Below, piece after piece: positions 41,149-48,907 of a stretch of DNA of 64,000 nt. This DNA comes from a bacterium (lineage in GTDB: Bacteria > Armatimonadota > Fimbriimonadia > Fimbriimonadales > Fimbriimonadaceae). Every line of letters starts with the position of its first letter. The stretch's first letter is position 1. The DNA lies in the NCBI GenBank assembly GCA_027485645.1, contig JAIXQR010000002.1, positions 186,001 through 250,000 on the forward strand, written 5' to 3'. The position numbers and the translations under genes were made by a program. The notes under the pieces were generated by a model. The model did no database searches, was not told the DNA's origin, and saw only the letters and a list, made by a program, of their open reading frames with translations.

Positions 41149-42365
41149 TCGCTGACTATCGAGCAGATTTTGATCTCATGCAAGCCGCCCTGGCGCGGTT
41201 GGGCAGCCGCTCTATTCGAATCGTGGCCACCCGAAAAGTCGGGTCGGTCGCTAACTCGGTGGAGTACCGACTTGTGCAATCGGGCCCGAACCTTCAACTC
41301 CGGGTCATCACGCCTCGGACCATTGAGCTTGACCGAACGGATTACACCTACACCCTAAACGGGACCAAGCTCACCGGAATGGACTTGCTGAATGGCGAGT
41401 TCATTCGGCGCACCGCCCCGTCCTCCGGGACGCCGATCGTTCGGCTTGCGAAAGTGCTGAACGCGATGGATGAAAGCGTTCGGTTGGTAGCCAATCCGGC
41501 CGATGCAAAGGACCTTGCGGTTCGCCTCAAGAAGGAGTCGGGCTGGAAGAACCAGATTGTCGGTGCGTCCTCACGATGGACGCGTGGAACCGAGAAGCAG
41601 GGGATCGTGCTTGAGCAACGGAAAGCCGACGGTCTGCCGACTCTTGTCCGATTCCGATCTGCGGCCGAAGAGATTCAGTGGCAGTACACGTACGGCGCGT
41701 CGGCTTCTGTCCCGGCTCCGGCAACCGGCGGCTACTTGAGCGTTGATTCATTCATCGCACGCCCGGCTCTGCCGCGTTTTCCGGACATGGCGACCGAGAA
41801 TGCCGTGCGGGCTTTTTTAACCGCGCAGAAGAAGTTTCAGCGGGGCGCAATCGTGGCCTCTAATGGCAAGACGGTCTGGCTCAACGGGGGAAGCCTGGGC
41901 GAAGATTCGGGCAAGGCGAAGTGGCGCTTCGATGGGAAGGACCTCGTCGCTACAAACGGGACTTTTTGGTACCGTGGCCGGGCTAGACGCCGTGAGGTTG
42001 GCCGGATTCTTGGTGAGCTTCTTCCGACAGGAATTAGCACCTACTGCCGTGATCTCTTGGGCGGTCGCGCTCCTTACCGATACGACCTCAGCGGGGATAT
42101 GCAAGGGCGCCTCGTCGGCGAACTCACGCTTGGCGGCCGAAAGGTAAATATCTTCGAATTCAACAATGCCCAGCGCCGCTTCCTGTTTCAGATCGACGCG
42201 GGCACAAAGCTCGTGCGGCAGTTGGAATCGGAAGTGAAGGACCGGCAGGGAAGGACGATTAGCCGAAACAAGGTCGCCTTCCAGTATCGAGCCGGTACCA
42301 AGGCCATACCCACCATTTCGCTTCCGGTGAAAGCGAAATGGCGAGCGTTGCCGAAGCTCGATTAG
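41145..42365 (+). CDS. Unrecognised protein coupled to the importer operon
   Basis: The 406-residue protein has no signal peptide or TM segment. It contains two beta-rich halves; the second (about 200-406) starts around SVDSFIARPALPRFPDMAT and has patterns such as YDLSGDMQGRLVGELTLGG and NVFEF-like strands that resemble outer-membrane lipoprotein carrier (LolA-type) folds, a loose resemblance only. The ATG overlaps the permease stop by 4 bases, so it is expressed with the ABC genes. Its stop overlaps the S41 gene's stop convergently by 4 bases. Confidence 0.6.
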   Translation: MIADYRADFDLMQAALARLGSRSIRIVATRKVGSVANSVEYRLVQSGPNLQLRVITPRTIELDRTDYTYTLNGTKLTGMDLLNGEFIRRTAPSSGTPIVRLAKVLNAMDESVRLVANPADAKDLAVRLKKESGWKNQIVGASSRWTRGTEKQGIVLEQRKADGLPTLVRFRSAAEEIQWQYTYGASASVPAPATGGYLSVDSFIARPALPRFPDMATENAVRAFLTAQKKFQRGAIVASNGKTVWLNGGSLGEDSGKAKWRFDGKDLVATNGTFWYRGRARRREVGRILGELLPTGISTYCRDLLGGRAPYRYDLSGDMQGRLVGELTLGGRKVNIFEFNNAQRRFLFQIDAGTKLVRQLESEVKDRQGRTISRNKVAFQYRAGTKAIPTISLPVKAKWRALPKLD

Positions 42366-43618
42366 AGCTTGTCGATTTGCGCGATGCGCTGGAAGACTTC
42401 CTGCGCTTTTGCCACGGCCGTATCGGGCGTGTTTGGAATCAAGAACGCAGGCTGGTTGACTTCGATGTCCGGCGTGACGCCTTTGCCTTCGAGCCGGAGC
42501 CCCTTGATCGTGACGTAATCGCTCAGTGGGTACTGGAGCGTAAAGCCACTCGTCAACGGCGCGATGATTGAGACCAGAACCGCGCCGGCGCTCTTGCGGC
42601 CGATGATGGTTGCGCCACCGACTTCGCGGAGGGCAGCCGCCGCCATTTCGGAGGCTGATCCAGAGGAGCCGTTCACGAGCACGACCAGGTTCCCAACGAA
42701 GCGAGGCACGTCTGACTTTGGCGTTACTTTGACCTTTCGCTTGGCAAAGTTAGCGATATCGGCAAGATCCGTACCGGGCTTTCCGGTCTTTTCTTTGTAG
42801 TCTTCCACCACTCGGCGGGAGATGAAGGTGCCGATTTCGACATCTTTGGCAAGGAAGCAGGACAGCAAGTGCTGCAGGTTGTAGACGGCTCCTCCGCCGT
42901 TGCCGCGGAGGTCAAGAATGAAATTGCGCTTGCCGATGCCTTTTCGAACCAAAGTTTCCACGCGGTCGGCGTTGTAGGTGAGGTCGAACGTATGCACCGT
43001 CAGCATCGCGGTATCAGGGTCTACCAGGGTGAACTCTTCTGGCTTTACCGTTGAGTACTTTTTGCGGACCAGGGACAGGTCTTCGATCTTCCCGGACGCC
43101 TTTTGAACTTTGATCTCGACGGTGCTGCCTTCTTCGCCGGCGATGGATTGAACGCCAGCGGAAATGGCTTTGCCGTTGACCTCAAGAATGCGATCTCCGG
43201 GGTTCAGCCCCACCTTCGCTGCGGGCGATCCCGCGTAAACGTAGGTGATCATCATGGCGCCGTTATCTGGCGCTACGCCGATTCCAATTCCCGTGTTCTT
43301 GGCTTCCCGGCGCACGTTCGTGGCTTTCGGTGTGTTGAGCACGATATGGCTGGCACCGAACTTTCGCAGCGCGCTGTTAACCGCCCGGGTGAAGGTCTCG
43401 TCGTCACTTGCTGTCTCGAGGCGAGACCGTTCTGCTTCCAAGAATTCCGGCCACTTGGAGAAGTCAATGCCCGGCACAAAAGCGTTTTGGGTGAGCGCGT
43501 CGGTAATTCGCGCGAGAACCGCTTGCTTCAACTCCGGGTTCTTTTCGATAACTTGAGCCGGTGCAAGAGCCGTGATTGCCGCGAGGACAGGAACAACGAA
43601 TAGCTTCAAAAGCCGCAT
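42362..43618 (-). CDS. Exported S41 peptidase with PDZ domain (C-terminal processing type)
   Basis: The 418-residue protein starts with a signal peptide (MRLLKLFVVPVLAAITALAPA). A PDZ domain spans about 110-200 (GIGIGVAPDNGAMMITYVYAGSPAAKVGLNPGDRILEVNG). The catalytic serine lies in the GSSGSASEMAAAALR loop and the lysine in IIGRKSAGAVL. It cleaves unfolded proteins, likely in the periplasm. The ATG at 43618 is chosen over a longer frame because the signal peptide begins there. Confidence 0.92.
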   Translation of the reverse strand: MRLLKLFVVPVLAAITALAPAQVIEKNPELKQAVLARITDALTQNAFVPGIDFSKWPEFLEAERSRLETASDDETFTRAVNSALRKFGASHIVLNTPKATNVRREAKNTGIGIGVAPDNGAMMITYVYAGSPAAKVGLNPGDRILEVNGKAISAGVQSIAGEEGSTVEIKVQKASGKIEDLSLVRKKYSTVKPEEFTLVDPDTAMLTVHTFDLTYNADRVETLVRKGIGKRNFILDLRGNGGGAVYNLQHLLSCFLAKDVEIGTFISRRVVEDYKEKTGKPGTDLADIANFAKRKVKVTPKSDVPRFVGNLVVLVNGSSGSASEMAAAALREVGGATIIGRKSAGAVLVSIIAPLTSGFTLQYPLSDYVTIKGLRLEGKGVTPDIEVNQPAFLIPNTPDTAVAKAQEVFQRIAQIDKL

Positions 43619-43689
43619 GAGTATCTTCAGCTTACGCTCAATTCGCGCCGAGAGATTCCGGTGCGGGTTCGAATCCGCAATTTCGACGA

Positions 43690-43980
43690 CTATTCCTCGT
43701 AAACTTCGACCCGAATGCCGATCTCGGAAATGATTGCCGAGACGGTTTCGCACTCTTCTTTGCCGCCGTGGTGAACCATCGACTTACCCAGGTGATGCAC
43801 TTCCCAGGTTTCCATTTCGGCTTCGTCTACCGTACAGCCGGTCGCGACGAGGAGGATGTGGATCACCTCTTCTTCGGTGTTCGTGTCGTTGTCATATACG
43901 GCGACTACCCACCTTTCCGAGCGAAGGCTGTCACCGAGCTCAGGACGTTCGATCGTGCTTGGCGCCGTATTCAAGATCAT
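43690..43980 (-). CDS. ClpS-like protein 1
   Basis: The 96-residue protein matches the ClpS fold: VAVYDNDTNTEEEVIHILLVATGCTVDEAE, then WEVHHLGKSMVHHGGKEECETV. E. coli ClpS feeds N-degron proteins to ClpA using N34, D35, D36 and H66. Here the pocket reads D-N-D (YDNDT) and keeps the His (EVHHLGK). Its ATG overlaps the stop of the second paralogue by 4 bases, so the two are translated together. ClpA and ClpP are not in the window. Confidence 0.8.
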   Translation of the reverse strand: MILNTAPSTIERPELGDSLRSERWVVAVYDNDTNTEEEVIHILLVATGCTVDEAEMETWEVHHLGKSMVHHGGKEECETVSAIISEIGIRVEVYEE

Positions 43981-44264
43981 TCGGGCCACTCCTTGGTGAC
44001 TTCGGTTTTGACTCCAATGGTCGAAATGATCGCGGCTACGGTCTCGCATTCCTCGTGGGTGGAGAAGTGAACGCTGGCTTTGCCGTAGGTGTGGGCTTCC
44101 CATGTTTCAATGTAGGCTTCCGTTACATCGCAACCGGTGGCTTCCATCAGGATGTCGATCACTTCGTCCATCGAGTTGGTGGCGTTGTTGAAAATGACGA
44201 CCATCCACCGGCCTTGGTTGCCATACTGCTCGCTAAAGATGGGTTCGAGAAGGGGCTGGCTCAT
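43977..44264 (-). CDS. ClpS-like protein 2
   Basis: A 95-residue paralogue of the neighbouring ClpS-like protein, sharing about half of its residues by eye: VVIFNNATNSMDEVIDILMEATGCDVTEAY, then WEAHTYGKASVHFSTHEECETV. The N-degron pocket position reads N-N-A instead of N-D-D, so one acidic ligand is lost; the His is kept. The ATG overlaps the stop of the YfhO-like gene by 4 bases. Confidence 0.8.
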   Translation of the reverse strand: MSQPLLEPIFSEQYGNQGRWMVVIFNNATNSMDEVIDILMEATGCDVTEAYIETWEAHTYGKASVHFSTHEECETVAAIISTIGVKTEVTKEWPE

Positions 44265-46483
44265 TCGGGTTTCGCTCCCGGGCTTCTCCAGAAGAAAATA
44301 ACGAAGAACAAAAGCGGGAAAAGATCGTTAAAACTAACTTCAATTCCTAATCCCTTTGGACGAATATACACCTCAGGAGTGTTTGGCTCTAGGTCGTACT
44401 CTAGCCAACGCGTGTCCTTCCTAGGCTCGCCGAGGTTACTGGTCCATTGCCCGATATTGCGGAACCGAACCGTCAGCTTTCCGCCTGGCGGGGCAACGAT
44501 CCGGATACCAGAAGGTGAAAGCTCGGCAATCTCGACCGGCTTGCCATCGACGTCGACCAGGCCCGGCCCCGATAGCTGATACACGAAGTACCCATCTCTC
44601 TGAACTGGATCGGAGGTCAACGAGGCAACCGGATTCCGACTCCACACCTCGGTCACTCCAGCGTCGGCCGCCTTCTTCGGGTCGAAGCTGTCCTTGATGA
44701 ACATCATGTTCCCGTTCGCCGGCGGAGGCGAATCTTGGCCGTTGATGTCGTTCAACATCGCGACGGTGTCCCGGTGTAGGAGGGAGTCATATCCACCCAG
44801 TTCCGGTTGCCGAAGCATCGTCGCCGTGTTGGGCGGCAAAACCGCCGGAGCGGCCGTGAGCAAGTCCCAATCGTTATTGACCACCGCGATGCGAGTTTTC
44901 GCCGGTTCCGCCTTTGCTTCCAGTGGCTTACCGAACATGATCGGATTGAAGGAAAGAATCCACGCGATGCCAAAGACGGTCACGAGGCCGAGCGCCCCGT
45001 GAGTCTTCTTCTTTTCATCTGGCATCTGGAGGAATACGAAACAACCGACGACTAGCAAAATCCCTATCAGCGCCGTCGTTGCGCCGGAGATAAATCCTGC
45101 CGCCGCCAATTGGCTGATCACTTCTGCGGGGACGGTGGATGGCGTGAAAGTGCCGTTTAGAACGGGCACCAACAAAATGGACAGAAGCACGACGCCAAGC
45201 CCGATCCAGCTTTTCTTCGTGAAATTTTGAACCGTGTTTGATGCTCCAAGTCCGGCCAAGAGACTTGCACCAAGAACAAAAAGCACAATCACACGCCCCG
45301 GCGAGCCAGTGGCGGACCAACCCGGAACGTTGAAGTAGAGCACAGCATTTAGCGGGGAGCCAAACGCGATAAGCGACGCTCCAACGCACAAGGCCGCCGC
45401 AAACCAAGTGCGCTTCGCTCGCCAATTTGCAAGGAAAAGGAAGGCGAGGATCAGCGGTCCAAGGGTGAGCGCGCCTTCAGCATAGTTCGCCCCACGCACG
45501 GCGATCGCCGGCCAATATTCGGAAACCTTTATCCCCGGCGCGGCCTCGGGCCCCGCGACTCTAGGGTTGCCCAGCATGGTCGGCGACGAAAGCGCAGTGA
45601 GATGAAATGGTTTAAGCGAGGACGAAACATACGCTTCGTACCCTTCCGCAGTCGGGATGCCCCGTCGATGTGAGAATTGCGAGTAGTCGAGCACCGTCCG
45701 AATTTGCGGTCCGGCAACCACATTGCCGATGAGGACGGCCGCTAAAATCATTACTGTACGCATTCCGAGTGTGCTAGGCGACTGACCAAACAAACTCGCA
45801 ACGATGGCAAGCCCGATCGCTCCCAAGCCGTAAGCGGCAAACTGCAAATGCCCAGCGAGAAGGACCAGCGCAATCGGGGCGGCGAGTCGAAGAACCGCCG
45901 CCATTTCAAACCGATCTTTCGGAAGACTTAACGCAGCCGCGATGCCCCAGGGGATCCAGCAAACGGTCGTGATGACGCTGGGGAGCGCCGTCCACGCAAG
46001 CATGAACGCGCTTGTGCCAAAGCCAACTGCCGACACGGTCTGCCCGAACTCATTCGCCCCGAGCGCCTTCGCGGCCTTCGCCGTACCCAGGGCGGCCAGC
46101 GACAAATGAAGCCACGCCAAAAGCACGATGGCGAGTCCCGTCGGAATCTTCAGGATTCCAACGAGAATGTGAAACGGATAGAGCCCGCCGGACTGAGAGT
46201 TCGCCAAGAGCGGGGTGCCGCCAAGCTCGTACGGATTCCAAACCGGAACCTCAAACCGCCCCCAACTTTGGAAGACCAGATCGCGCCAGACATAGAACTG
46301 AAGGACGCTATCGGCCTGCAGCACATCCCACGGCACGGACGGCTTTTCGCCGTTCCAAGGCGCCATTTGCCGAATCTGGTCAAAGGCTCCGATGGTGTTC
46401 CCGCTGAAAAGGGCAGGGGCGATGGGAATGAATCCGAGCAAAATGCACAGGATGAGATTCCAGTGCTTGCGGATCGGAGGCAT
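44261..46483 (-). CDS. YfhO-like polytopic membrane protein
   Basis: A 740-residue protein with about a dozen TM segments in the first 530 residues, followed by a beta-rich extracytoplasmic domain and a final TM. The N-terminal loop motif FDQIRQMAPWNG followed by DSVLQFYVWRDLVFQSWGRFEVPVWNPYELGGTPL resembles YfhO/PMT-like lipid-linked sugar transferases. The catalytic acid pair cannot be fixed. In other bacteria YfhO glycosylates lipoteichoic acids; the substrate here is unknown. It is the second gene of the run from the TPR gene to the ClpS-like pair. Confidence 0.82.
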   Translation of the reverse strand: MPPIRKHWNLILCILLGFIPIAPALFSGNTIGAFDQIRQMAPWNGEKPSVPWDVLQADSVLQFYVWRDLVFQSWGRFEVPVWNPYELGGTPLLANSQSGGLYPFHILVGILKIPTGLAIVLLAWLHLSLAALGTAKAAKALGANEFGQTVSAVGFGTSAFMLAWTALPSVITTVCWIPWGIAAALSLPKDRFEMAAVLRLAAPIALVLLAGHLQFAAYGLGAIGLAIVASLFGQSPSTLGMRTVMILAAVLIGNVVAGPQIRTVLDYSQFSHRRGIPTAEGYEAYVSSSLKPFHLTALSSPTMLGNPRVAGPEAAPGIKVSEYWPAIAVRGANYAEGALTLGPLILAFLFLANWRAKRTWFAAALCVGASLIAFGSPLNAVLYFNVPGWSATGSPGRVIVLFVLGASLLAGLGASNTVQNFTKKSWIGLGVVLLSILLVPVLNGTFTPSTVPAEVISQLAAAGFISGATTALIGILLVVGCFVFLQMPDEKKKTHGALGLVTVFGIAWILSFNPIMFGKPLEAKAEPAKTRIAVVNNDWDLLTAAPAVLPPNTATMLRQPELGGYDSLLHRDTVAMLNDINGQDSPPPANGNMMFIKDSFDPKKAADAGVTEVWSRNPVASLTSDPVQRDGYFVYQLSGPGLVDVDGKPVEIAELSPSGIRIVAPPGGKLTVRFRNIGQWTSNLGEPRKDTRWLEYDLEPNTPEVYIRPKGLGIEVSFNDLFPLLFFVIFFWRSPGAKPE

Positions 46484-46498
46484 GGCGTTAAGTTGTGG

Positions 46499-46861
46499 CT
46501 AGAAGTAAGCCAGTTGTTGACGCGCCTTTTCGTGGCTTGGGTTCACGGCAAGAATGAGCCGAAAATTGTGGGCGGCCTCATCGTTCATGCCCAACATCAT
46601 CTGGGTCATCGCGAGGTCGTAGCGAACATCCTGGTCGGAGGGATCCTGCGTGCTGAGCGTCTGGAGCGTCTCTAGGCTTCCGTCAAAATCGCCTTCAAAG
46701 CCTTGAATCAGGCCCATTTGGTGCCGAGCTCGAATGTGACCCGGCTCTTGGTTCAAAACGCTTTCGAGATAGAGACGAGCTTCTCCATATCTCCCGGCGC
46801 AACGTGCATCAAACCCCTTCTGGTAGAGCGCTTCGATTTGGTTTTGATCCGCCATTGCCAA
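46499..46861 (-). CDS. Small TPR-repeat protein
   Basis: A 120-residue protein with three to four tetratricopeptide-like helical pairs (ALYQKGFDARCAGRYGEARLYLESVL; GSLETLQTL; EAAHNFRLILAVNPSHEKARQQL). It is probably a protein-interaction scaffold. TTG at 46861 is taken as start because TATACT lies 6 bases before it; ATG at 46855 is an alternative. It is followed 15 bases later by the YfhO-like gene. Confidence 0.8.
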   Translation of the reverse strand: MAMADQNQIEALYQKGFDARCAGRYGEARLYLESVLNQEPGHIRARHQMGLIQGFEGDFDGSLETLQTLSTQDPSDQDVRYDLAMTQMMLGMNDEAAHNFRLILAVNPSHEKARQQLAYF

Positions 46862-46867
46862 GATAGA

Positions 46868-46873
46868 AGTATA
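46868..46873 (-). promoter_or_regulatory. -10 box TATACT of the TPR gene
   Basis: On the minus strand TATACT is followed by 6 bases and the TTG start at 46861, without a Shine-Dalgarno. Confidence 0.55.
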
Positions 46874-46895
46874 TCACCCGCAGGCGATAATGTCT

Positions 46896-46925
46896 GTTCC
46901 CCGACGAGGATCATTGTCGGGGAAC
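46896..46925 (-). terminator. Hairpin after ftsH
   Basis: GTTCCCCGAC (46896-46905) pairs perfectly with GTCGGGGAAC (46916-46925) with a 10-base loop. It lies between the ftsH stop (46943) and the TPR promoter. The U-tract after it on the minus strand is poor. Confidence 0.6.
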
Positions 46926-46942
46926 GACTACCAGTTTTTTGG

Positions 46943-48907
46943 CTAGGCTGGGCCTGGCTCCAGGCGAGGCGGGCTCACCTGGGCACGCTTCTCGTCCTGC
47001 TCTGATGGGTTAGACGGGCTTTCCATCTCGGTTTGATCGGAAGGAGCCGAAACTTCTTCCATCGGCGCCAAAGTCTCGCCGGCCAATACGGCCAGGAACT
47101 CTTCTCGGTTCAGGGTTTCTCGCTCCATAAGGGCAGCAACCACCGCAACCATCTTGTCCCGGTTGCTGGTGATTAGCTCGGTGGCGCGCTGGTGGCATGC
47201 GTCAACGATGCTGCGAACCTCTTCATCGATCTGTCGCGCGATGTCTTCGGAGTAGTTTCGGTCCTCGTTATAGTCTCGACCCAGGAACGGATTGTTGCTG
47301 TGGCGACCGATCGCGAGGGTTCCGAGCTTGTCGCTCATTCCGAACTCGCAAACCATCGCCCGGGCGATTCGCGTGACGCGAGCAAGGTCGTTGCTTGCGC
47401 CGGTCCATCGCTCACCGTAGATCACTTCTTCGGCAACGAGTCCGCCAAGAAGCATCGCGATGTCGTCCAGCAACTCAGACTTGCTCTGGGTGTACTTTTC
47501 GACTTCTGGTAGCGACCAAGTGGTGCCGAGCGTTCGTCCGCGAGGAAGAATCGTGACCTTGTGGATCGGATCGGTGTGCTCAAGAAGCTCACCGATGATC
47601 GCGTGTCCCGCTTCGTGGTAGGCCGTGACCTCGCGCTCCTTGTCTGCTTGTCGGCGGCTACCGAGGGCGGTACCAACCATAACGCGGTCGAGCGCTTCTT
47701 CGATCTCTCGCTTGCCGATCTTGGTCTTGTTGTTTCGCGCGGCGATGAGCGCCGCTTCGTTTAGCGTGTTCGCCAAATCCGCACCGGAGAAGCCGGGAGT
47801 TCTTCGAGCGACGGTTTCCATGCTCACGTCGGTTTCGATTGGCTTGCCCTTGGCGTGGATCTTGAGGATCGCTTCGCGACCCTTCGCATCTGGGGCATCG
47901 ACGACAACTTGTCGGTCGAATCGGCCGGGTCGAAGCAACGCCGGGTCAAGAACGTCCGGTCGGTTCGTGGCGGCGATCATGATGACGCCGGAGTTCGGGT
48001 CGAATCCGTCCATTTCAACCAAAAGCTGGTTGAGGGTCTGCTCGCGTTCGTCGTGACCACCACCGAGACCAGCGCCTCGTTGGCGACCTACGGCGTCGAT
48101 TTCATCGACGAAGATCAGCGATGGGCGGTGAGCTTTGGCCGTTTCAAAGAGATCTCGAACTCGTGCTGCACCGACACCGACGAACATTTCGACGAAGTCA
48201 GAACCGCTGATGTGGAAGAACGGAACGCCAGCTTCGCCCGCAATGGCTCTAGCCAAGTACGTCTTACCAACGCCGGGAGGGCCCGTCAAAAGGATTCCCT
48301 TTGGAATCTTCGCGCCGAGGGCGGCATATTTGCGGGTGTTCTTCAGGAAGTCAACGATCTCGAACAGTTCAGCCTTGGCTTCTTCAATTCCGGCAACGTC
48401 GTCGAAGGTGATCTTCGGTCCGCTCTCGCCAACGCGTCGAGCCTTGCTCTTGCCGAAGCTCATGGCCTGGTTGCCGCCCATTTGGGCCGGACGCAGAACC
48501 AGGAAGTACAGAAGCGCGAAGAACAGGATCGGAATGCCGATGAAGGTCAGCGCGTTCATGATGCCGGTGATCGGCGGCGCGTCTTCAAACTTGATATCAG
48601 CGGTGCTCTTCCTGTCTTCGATCTCGCGAAGGATTGCCGCGCCGGTTGGAGTCTGTTGTTCCGGTACGCGGACGGTGTAACGACCTGCGTTTCCAGCAAG
48701 GTCGCCGCTGATGGTGTTTTGTTGCCAGCGAATCGTCTTGATTTGGTCGCTTTCGAGCTCTTTGTAAAACGAGGTGATGGTGAGTTCTTTTGGCGGGGTT
48801 GCACCGAACCGGAAGGTGCTCGATGACATGAACGTGTTCATCAGAACCACGATCGCCACGATGAAAATGACCACTGCTAGGATGGTACGTGCGGGTTGTT
48901 TCGTCAA
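46943..48907 (-). CDS. ftsH: ATP-dependent zinc metalloprotease FtsH
   Basis: This membrane-bound AAA protease is 654 residues. TM1 lies in [17 protein letters not shown], an FtsH extracytoplasmic segment follows, then TM2 (about 110-135). The AAA domain has Walker [11 protein letters not shown] and Walker B LIFVDEID, and the second region of homology follows. Zinc is bound by HEAGHA and the later Glu/Asp. The TTG start at 48907 is preceded by GGAG six bases upstream, a good Shine-Dalgarno. It degrades unfolded or short-lived membrane and regulatory proteins. tilS lies upstream on the same strand. Confidence 0.97.

Follow-up and report, generated by a model that had tools for sequence, protein, structure and literature searches.

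A tandem pair of ClpS-fold genes with diverged and covarying pocket residues in Armatimonadota

The ClpS-A and ClpS-B genes and their neighbours

Two overlapping genes on the reverse strand of the 64,000-nucleotide stretch of Armatimonadota DNA that we analysed (hereafter the window) encode small proteins of the ClpS family: ClpS-A (43977..44264, 95 aa) and, immediately downstream, ClpS-B (43690..43980, 96 aa). ClpS proteins are small adaptors that recognise substrates by their first residue and deliver them to a protease. Against the Pfam ClpS family (PF02617, cut-off 23 bits), A scores 44.5 bits and B 41.3 bits, and no other match to this family was found in the genome, an assembly of 3.19 Mb (7 contigs, completeness 98.4%). 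The NCBIfam ClpS equivalog models (PRK00033 and PRK13019) gave best scores of 23.2 and 24.2 bits, which leaves both proteins far below the cut-off of 86. The AlphaFold2 models have confident cores (mean pLDDT of 85.6 for A and 84.2 for B) and match the ClpS structures of the PDB: Foldseek returned 38 matches at E≤0.001 for each model, every one from a ClpS entry, if one counts two chains of 4o2x, whose PDB title says only ‘a malarial protein’ and which is named elsewhere as a ClpS fusion. The original prediction of two ClpS-fold proteins overlapping by four bases is thus confirmed by the position of the open reading frames and by the agreement of Pfam, AlphaFold2 and Foldseek, both predicted structures having aligned to ClpS. 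Chance open reading frames are ruled out by the profile scores, the models and the recurrence of the genes in relatives.

The overlap itself consists of the sequence ATGA (43977-43980), and an in-frame GTG at 43989 is an alternative start for the B gene of the window that would lengthen the overlap with A to 13 bases. With starts chosen by a heuristic, an overlap of 1-16 bases is found in 42 of 58 pairs; 13 bases is the commonest value (21/58) and four bases occur in 4/58, so the four-base overlap is one among several arrangements of the pair.

The pair lies within a row of genes on the same strand (42362-48907), partly conserved in relatives, which begins with FtsH and continues with a TPR protein, a YfhO-like protein, ClpS-A, ClpS-B and an S41 peptidase. 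The first gene encodes a 654-aa FtsH membrane AAA+ protease (46943..48907; TIGR01241 with 801 bits against a cut-off of 600), which is the sole M41 match of its genome, and is followed by a Pfam TPR protein of 120 aa with an uncertain start (46499..46861). The gene directly upstream of A, with which it shares another 4-base overlap, encodes a YfhO-like membrane protein of 740 aa (44261..46483). This protein has no Pfam match above cut-off, and matches to PF09586 (YfhO) below the cut-off were found in 6 of the 10 proteins of the YfhO-like set, that of the window included. Downstream of B lies an S41 peptidase with a PDZ domain (42362..43618; PF03572, 103 bits), the start of which was placed by eye at a signal-peptide-like Met. 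Of the 57 other pair loci, several of which end early at contig ends, 43 have a YfhO-like match upstream in the same orientation, 25 a match to the TPR protein and 25 a match to FtsH; the S41 peptidase follows downstream, again in the same orientation, in 19.

Spread and ancestry of the tandem

Our profile search for ClpS covered 101 genomes, those of the window's order in Armatimonadota being divided into five sampled families (f1-f5). In three of them (f1, f3 and f5) the tandem, with A before B, is conserved: a hand check of the table found both genes adjacent on one contig in all 60 genomes with two Pfam ClpS matches; in one of the 60 (G076) a copy is broken by stops. Two f5 genomes beyond these 60 (G072 and G074) have a neighbouring second copy that was found solely with a custom HMM. 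Five of the 61 f1 genomes have one ClpS match and three have none, f2 genomes have at most one, and the only f4 genome lacks a match. Among named genomes, a scan gave 93 relatives of B, from which 80 loci were kept: 58 with two ClpS open reading frames, one with three and 21 with one. These 80 loci carry titles that are mostly Armatimonadetes, Fimbriimonad- or Chthonomonad-, but record titles are an unsafe guide, because several pair loci are named Chthonomonas although the contig falls in f1. Two further records that carry these genes, titled Methanoregulaceae archaeon (L150) and Actinomycetota bacterium (L152), are probably mislabelled metagenome bins.

Elsewhere in the phylum, genomes of other families can have a B-type gene and, at a separate locus, a gene of a canonical-like type, which we call U (mostly Asn-Asp-Asp at positions 34-36, E. 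coli numbering). The gene order of the window was looked for at 64 non-pair loci (30 B-type, 28 U-type, 3 A-type and 3 single-copy, some of them fetched twice) and was seen only at two single-copy f1 loci, L093 and L094; the exceptions elsewhere were an FtsH match at one U locus and, at one B locus, a weak match to TPR from the opposite strand. In two genomes (L190, 3836-4267, and L192, 66-515) a further kind of ClpS, with Asp-Asp-Asp, Tyr40 and Asp66, occurs in addition to a U-type copy and resembles the pattern of Leptospira ClpS1.

Proteins labelled A by their position form one clade, comprising 57 distinct rows and the single-copy L093, with a support of 0.86, and with 91/84 in a tree of 65 rows chosen from 192, with pairs drawn at random. 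All B proteins also group together in the best 65-row tree (94/86), which means that A and B may have diverged before the tandem arose. A topology that unites the A and B proteins from pair loci in one clade was not rejected (p-AU 0.355), so that a local duplication as the origin of the tandem is likewise not rejected by these sequences.

Pocket residues and their linked changes

In Caulobacter ClpS, the reported contacts to the substrate's alpha-amino group are Asn47, Asp49 and His79, which correspond by an offset of 13 to E. coli positions 34, 36 and 66 (E. coli numbering is used throughout), and the specificity pocket has been mapped to positions 32, 33, 34, 35, 38, 40, 43, 62, 65, 66 and 99 (PMC12493166). 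Aligned to these, the A protein of the window has N34, N35, A36, M40, T62 and H66, with V84, and the B protein has D34, N35, D36, E40 and H66. The triplets N-N-A in A and D-N-D in B, as against N34-D35-D36 in E. coli, are those originally predicted, and the three alpha-amino ligand positions (34/36/66) read N/A/H in A and D/D/H in B.

Among 58 A proteins (identical rows kept), Asn34 is found in 52, Asn35 in 51, Asp or Glu at 36 in 52, Ala36 in 4 and His66 in 49, and 44 of the 58 keep Asn34, Asp/Glu36 and His66 together. The 58 B proteins, counted in the same manner, have Asn35 in all 58, Asn34 in 36, Asp34 in 22, Asp/Glu36 in 54, Asp66 in 44 and His66 in 14. Asn35 is therefore a trait of the family, beyond what the original prediction had expected. 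Compared with the nearest relative (L048), the window has exchanged Asp36 for Ala in A and Val40 for Glu in B, differences taken from an alignment in which a sequencing error is possible; Ala36 is rare (4/58) and, by this comparison, a recent change. Most B proteins swap position 34 or 66 to Asp. Judging from these alignments, the telling changes in B sit at 66 and 40, which had not been foreseen. The number of acids at 34, 36 and 66 is two in 85 of 101 B proteins and one in 45 of 58 A proteins, the window having two in B and none in A. Each copy also has a signature of its own, with Ala65 in 56/58 A against Ile or Val in 58/58 B, and Ala71 in 56/58 A against Ser or Cys in 58/58 B. None of the 58 A and none of the 58 B proteins has Lys84.

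Two features outside the pocket were also observed. Cys53 and Cys81 are invariant (58/58 A and 58/58 B), and may be close to each other in the fold. The N-terminal extensions contain the motif [LIVMF]-x(0,2)-P-[ED] in 34/57 A and 40/58 B, against 4.8 and 10.0 in shuffled sequences, the motif having been framed on the same sequences.

The changes in B are not independent of each other. When identical rows were removed, 150 rows of B-type proteins were reduced to 101 distinct ones, in which the combinations at 34/66 are Asn/Asp in 54, Asp/His in 28, Asp/Asp in 14 and Asn/His in 5. Tyr40 occurs with Asp66 in 56 of 56 cases and Glu36 with Asp66 in 26 of 26, while Asp34 is mostly accompanied by His66. 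By APC-corrected mutual information, the column pair 40-66 ranks 2, 34-66 ranks 21, 36-66 ranks 57 and 62-66 ranks 64 of 2701, the top-ranked pair being 31-98, which is not a pocket pair. The best four partners of position 66 (40, 34, 36 and 62) are all pocket columns, for which the chance is 2.3e-4 given ten pocket columns among 70 candidates, position 36 having been included as one of the alpha-amino ligands and the test having been framed once the ranking was known. Covariation in A is weaker: 40-62 ranks 2 and 34-66 ranks 8, and position 66 has mixed partners (34, 62, 95 and 90).

Shared ancestry was taken into account by counting independent pairs, expressed as medians of 300 draws. The tree was built with FastTree after columns 34, 36, 40 and 66 had been removed, and pairs were drawn over all of its branches; a stricter version, restricted to well-supported branches, yielded one usable pair, and the all-branch count, which is weaker, was therefore used. 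Tyr40 and Asp66 went the same way in 14 of 18 pairs, the opposite way in 0 and without difference in 4 (p about 1e-4), and Asp34 and His66 went the same way in 10 of 22, the opposite way in 0 and without difference in 12 (p about 0.002). When the pairs for Asp34/His66 were counted from position 66, the corresponding figures were 10, 1 and 7 of 18, with a median p of 0.012 and a largest p of 0.11. Since positions 34, 36, 40 and 66 covary in B, its pocket has not simply decayed, and we set simple pocket decay aside. The linked changes suggest instead that the two copies read different protein ends.

Unfoldase, N-degron writer and the proposed roles of the pair

Two proteins with a Clp_N domain are present in the genome of the window: ClpB (1383 bits against a cut-off of 1232) and a protein of 832 aa that falls below the ClpA and ClpB cut-offs. 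The latter we take to be ClpC-like from its size and N-terminal sequence, a label drawn from general knowledge because no ClpC model was among the matches listed. The search for ClpA that the original prediction called for found none above cut-off in this genome, the best match having 814 bits against a cut-off of 993, and a hand count likewise gave none over the cut-off in the 43 pair-bearing genomes within the 61 searched. The only one of the 61 with such a match is G061, a genome of the window's order, in which it lies 30 bases behind a canonical ClpS match (L220, G061:C36). Delivery to ClpA was set aside, as ClpA over the cut-off is absent. Lys84 is a contact of E. coli ClpS to ClpA, and it is replaced in Leptospira ClpS1 as it is in A and B, which is reported still to bind ClpA with a Kd of 0.44 µM (PMC12493166).

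The genome also encodes Aat (G000:C1:429665-430141, E 3.7e-63, no internal stop), and no match to ATE/Bpt was found in it. Aat is an L/F-tRNA-protein transferase that writes Leu/Phe N-degrons, and its presence excludes a genome without an N-degron writer. Across 291 genomes of the phylum, ClpS is found in 161 and Aat in 132; a hand count, uncorrected for kinship and assembly gaps, gives both in 124, ClpS alone in 37, Aat alone in 8 and neither in 122. Aat accompanies 73 of the 81 genomes of f1, f3 and f5 with at least two Pfam ClpS matches and was undetected in 8 (counted by hand, kinship uncorrected), and the pockets of pair genomes without Aat look no different in an alignment inspected by eye.

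On balance, we consider it probable, if by no great measure, that A and B are two specialised N-degron adaptors for ClpC, with A near-canonical and B having an acidic, switched pocket. The two proteins would probably be made from one transcript, and each would use its ClpS fold to grip a substrate at the exposed N-terminal residue and then pass it to the organism's own ClpC-type unfoldase, Aat supplying Leu/Phe N-degrons. A would read the classical bulky hydrophobic residues, the canonical alpha-amino ligands being kept in most of its relatives. B-type pockets have one acid more, an Asp at position 34 or 66 that is linked to the gatekeeper at 40, and would read another or a wider set of residues, or bind with another strength. 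We infer this division of labour, and the residues read by each copy, from the sequences. Of the two outcomes originally envisaged for the altered pockets, the reading of different N-terminal residues appears favoured, because the B pockets covary, Aat accompanies the pair and A keeps its ligands in 44/58, and a departure from N-degron recognition towards another partner appears the less favoured alternative. Counting against two specialised adaptors are the loss in the window of Asp36, the match to a known alpha-amino ligand, the weaker covariation of A, the 8 of 81 genomes without detected Aat and the scores far below the NCBIfam cut-offs. Since the A protein of the window has no acid at 34, 36 or 66, binding in this species may be weak or changed.

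A more specific proposal, which we regard as speculative and rather unlikely, is that A reads the Leu/Phe written by Aat, that B reads non-classical N-termini (e.g., basic or beta-branched), and that both feed ClpC and are co-made with FtsH. If true, co-production with FtsH would set the turnover of soluble and membrane proteins together, and the linked residues of B, whose second acid moves between 34 and 66 in step with position 40, the gatekeeper, would form a natural switch of specificity that has flipped many times in one phylum.

Alternatively, A could be the N-degron adaptor, and the chief role of B could be regulatory, namely to occupy ClpC and to block or retune the degradation of other substrates. 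Precedents are available: ClpS2 of Synechococcus is reported to block alpha-casein degradation by ClpCP3/R (PMC6274998), both ClpS proteins of Leptospira are reported to inhibit ClpA ATPase and the degradation of SsrA substrates (PMC12493166), and Leptospira ClpS1 has in common with 56/101 B-type proteins the residues Tyr40 and Asp66. Nevertheless, the residues of the B-type pocket change in concert, something that would be superfluous in a pure regulator, and E. coli ClpS is described as coupling inhibition with delivery (PMC12493166), so that a regulatory B, which we think unlikely, would differ from a specialised adaptor in emphasis only.

The neighbouring genes raise another possibility, namely that the pair left general N-degron delivery and works with FtsH, the TPR protein and the YfhO-like protein in the turnover of membrane proteins. 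The order FtsH-TPR-YfhO-ClpS-A-ClpS-B is conserved (at 25, 25 and 43 of 57 loci for the three neighbours, respectively), FtsH is the genome's only M41 match, and the window's A has Ala36. However, these neighbours are absent or moved at many pair loci, this order did not turn up at the B-type and U-type loci from the rest of the phylum, covariation and Aat co-occurrence favour N-degrons, and an operon is not necessarily a shared complex, all of which makes this explanation quite improbable. A and B could also form an obligate heterodimer, a single adaptor with two pockets, as might be expected from their fixed order, their frequent overlap and the single clade of position-labelled A; with B-type genes lacking an adjoining A in other families, and with single-copy loci in f1 (L093, L094 and L095), we find this more doubtful still. 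The least credible explanation is that the copies are redundant with near-neutral drift of the pockets, since for all the variation of the triplets between orthologues and the loss of Asp36 in the window's A, each copy holds its own signature at 65 and 71 and the pocket columns of B covary.

If A and B are indeed two specialised N-degron adaptors, Armatimonadota would likely have an L/F N-degron system in which ClpC takes the place of ClpA. What is known so far about changes of N-terminal specificity in ClpS-type recognins comes from a small number of paralogues and mutants, and a large natural set of pairs in which 34, 36, 40 and 66 switch jointly and repeatedly would reveal the residues that set specificity; paired adaptors could, in addition, yield binders for N-terminal amino acids. 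In a limited full-text search, we found no literature on ClpS in Armatimonadetes, on histidine in ClpS as an N-degron adaptor of ClpC, or on ClpS and phenylalanyl N-degrons across phyla, and no description of the conserved tandem, the FtsH/YfhO gene order or the linked pocket states in the literature searched.

The ClpAP adaptor of E. coli and Caulobacter shares its fold with A and B, and A mostly retains its Asn34, Asp36 and His66, but Asp35 is replaced here by Asn35, Lys84 is lost and the window's own genome has no ClpA over the cut-off. ClpS2 of Agrobacterium tumefaciens (4yjm), a solved ClpS paralogue of stricter specificity, has the same fold as well, with 16-18% identity in the Foldseek alignments. 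In Leptospira interrogans, ClpS1 (LIC11356) is reported to have His66 changed to Asp, the gatekeeper Met40 to Tyr and Lys84 to Val (PMC12493166). It is like many B-type proteins in having Tyr40 with Asp66 (56/101 B-type), and unlike the B of the window, which has Glu40 and His66; moreover, the gene for ClpS1 is described as solitary and that for ClpS2 as adjoining clpA (PMC12493166), whereas A and B are in tandem. Placement of ClpS, or of a ClpS-L7/L12 domain, in other operons has also been reported (PMC1779556, PMC12419801). The tandem and the FtsH/YfhO neighbours are unmentioned in the passages drawn on here from the reports on cyanobacterial ClpS1 and ClpS2 (PMC7966870, PMC6274998), a system that we set beside ours by its description. 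The likeness lies in the two ClpS paralogues, which here would serve a ClpC-like unfoldase: in Synechococcus elongatus, two ClpS paralogues that act on one ClpC are reported to bind different N-terminal residues (PMC7966870, PMC6274998). Two ClpS proteins on one ClpC are thus already known from cyanobacteria, and the Armatimonadota pair would be a variant of this arrangement.
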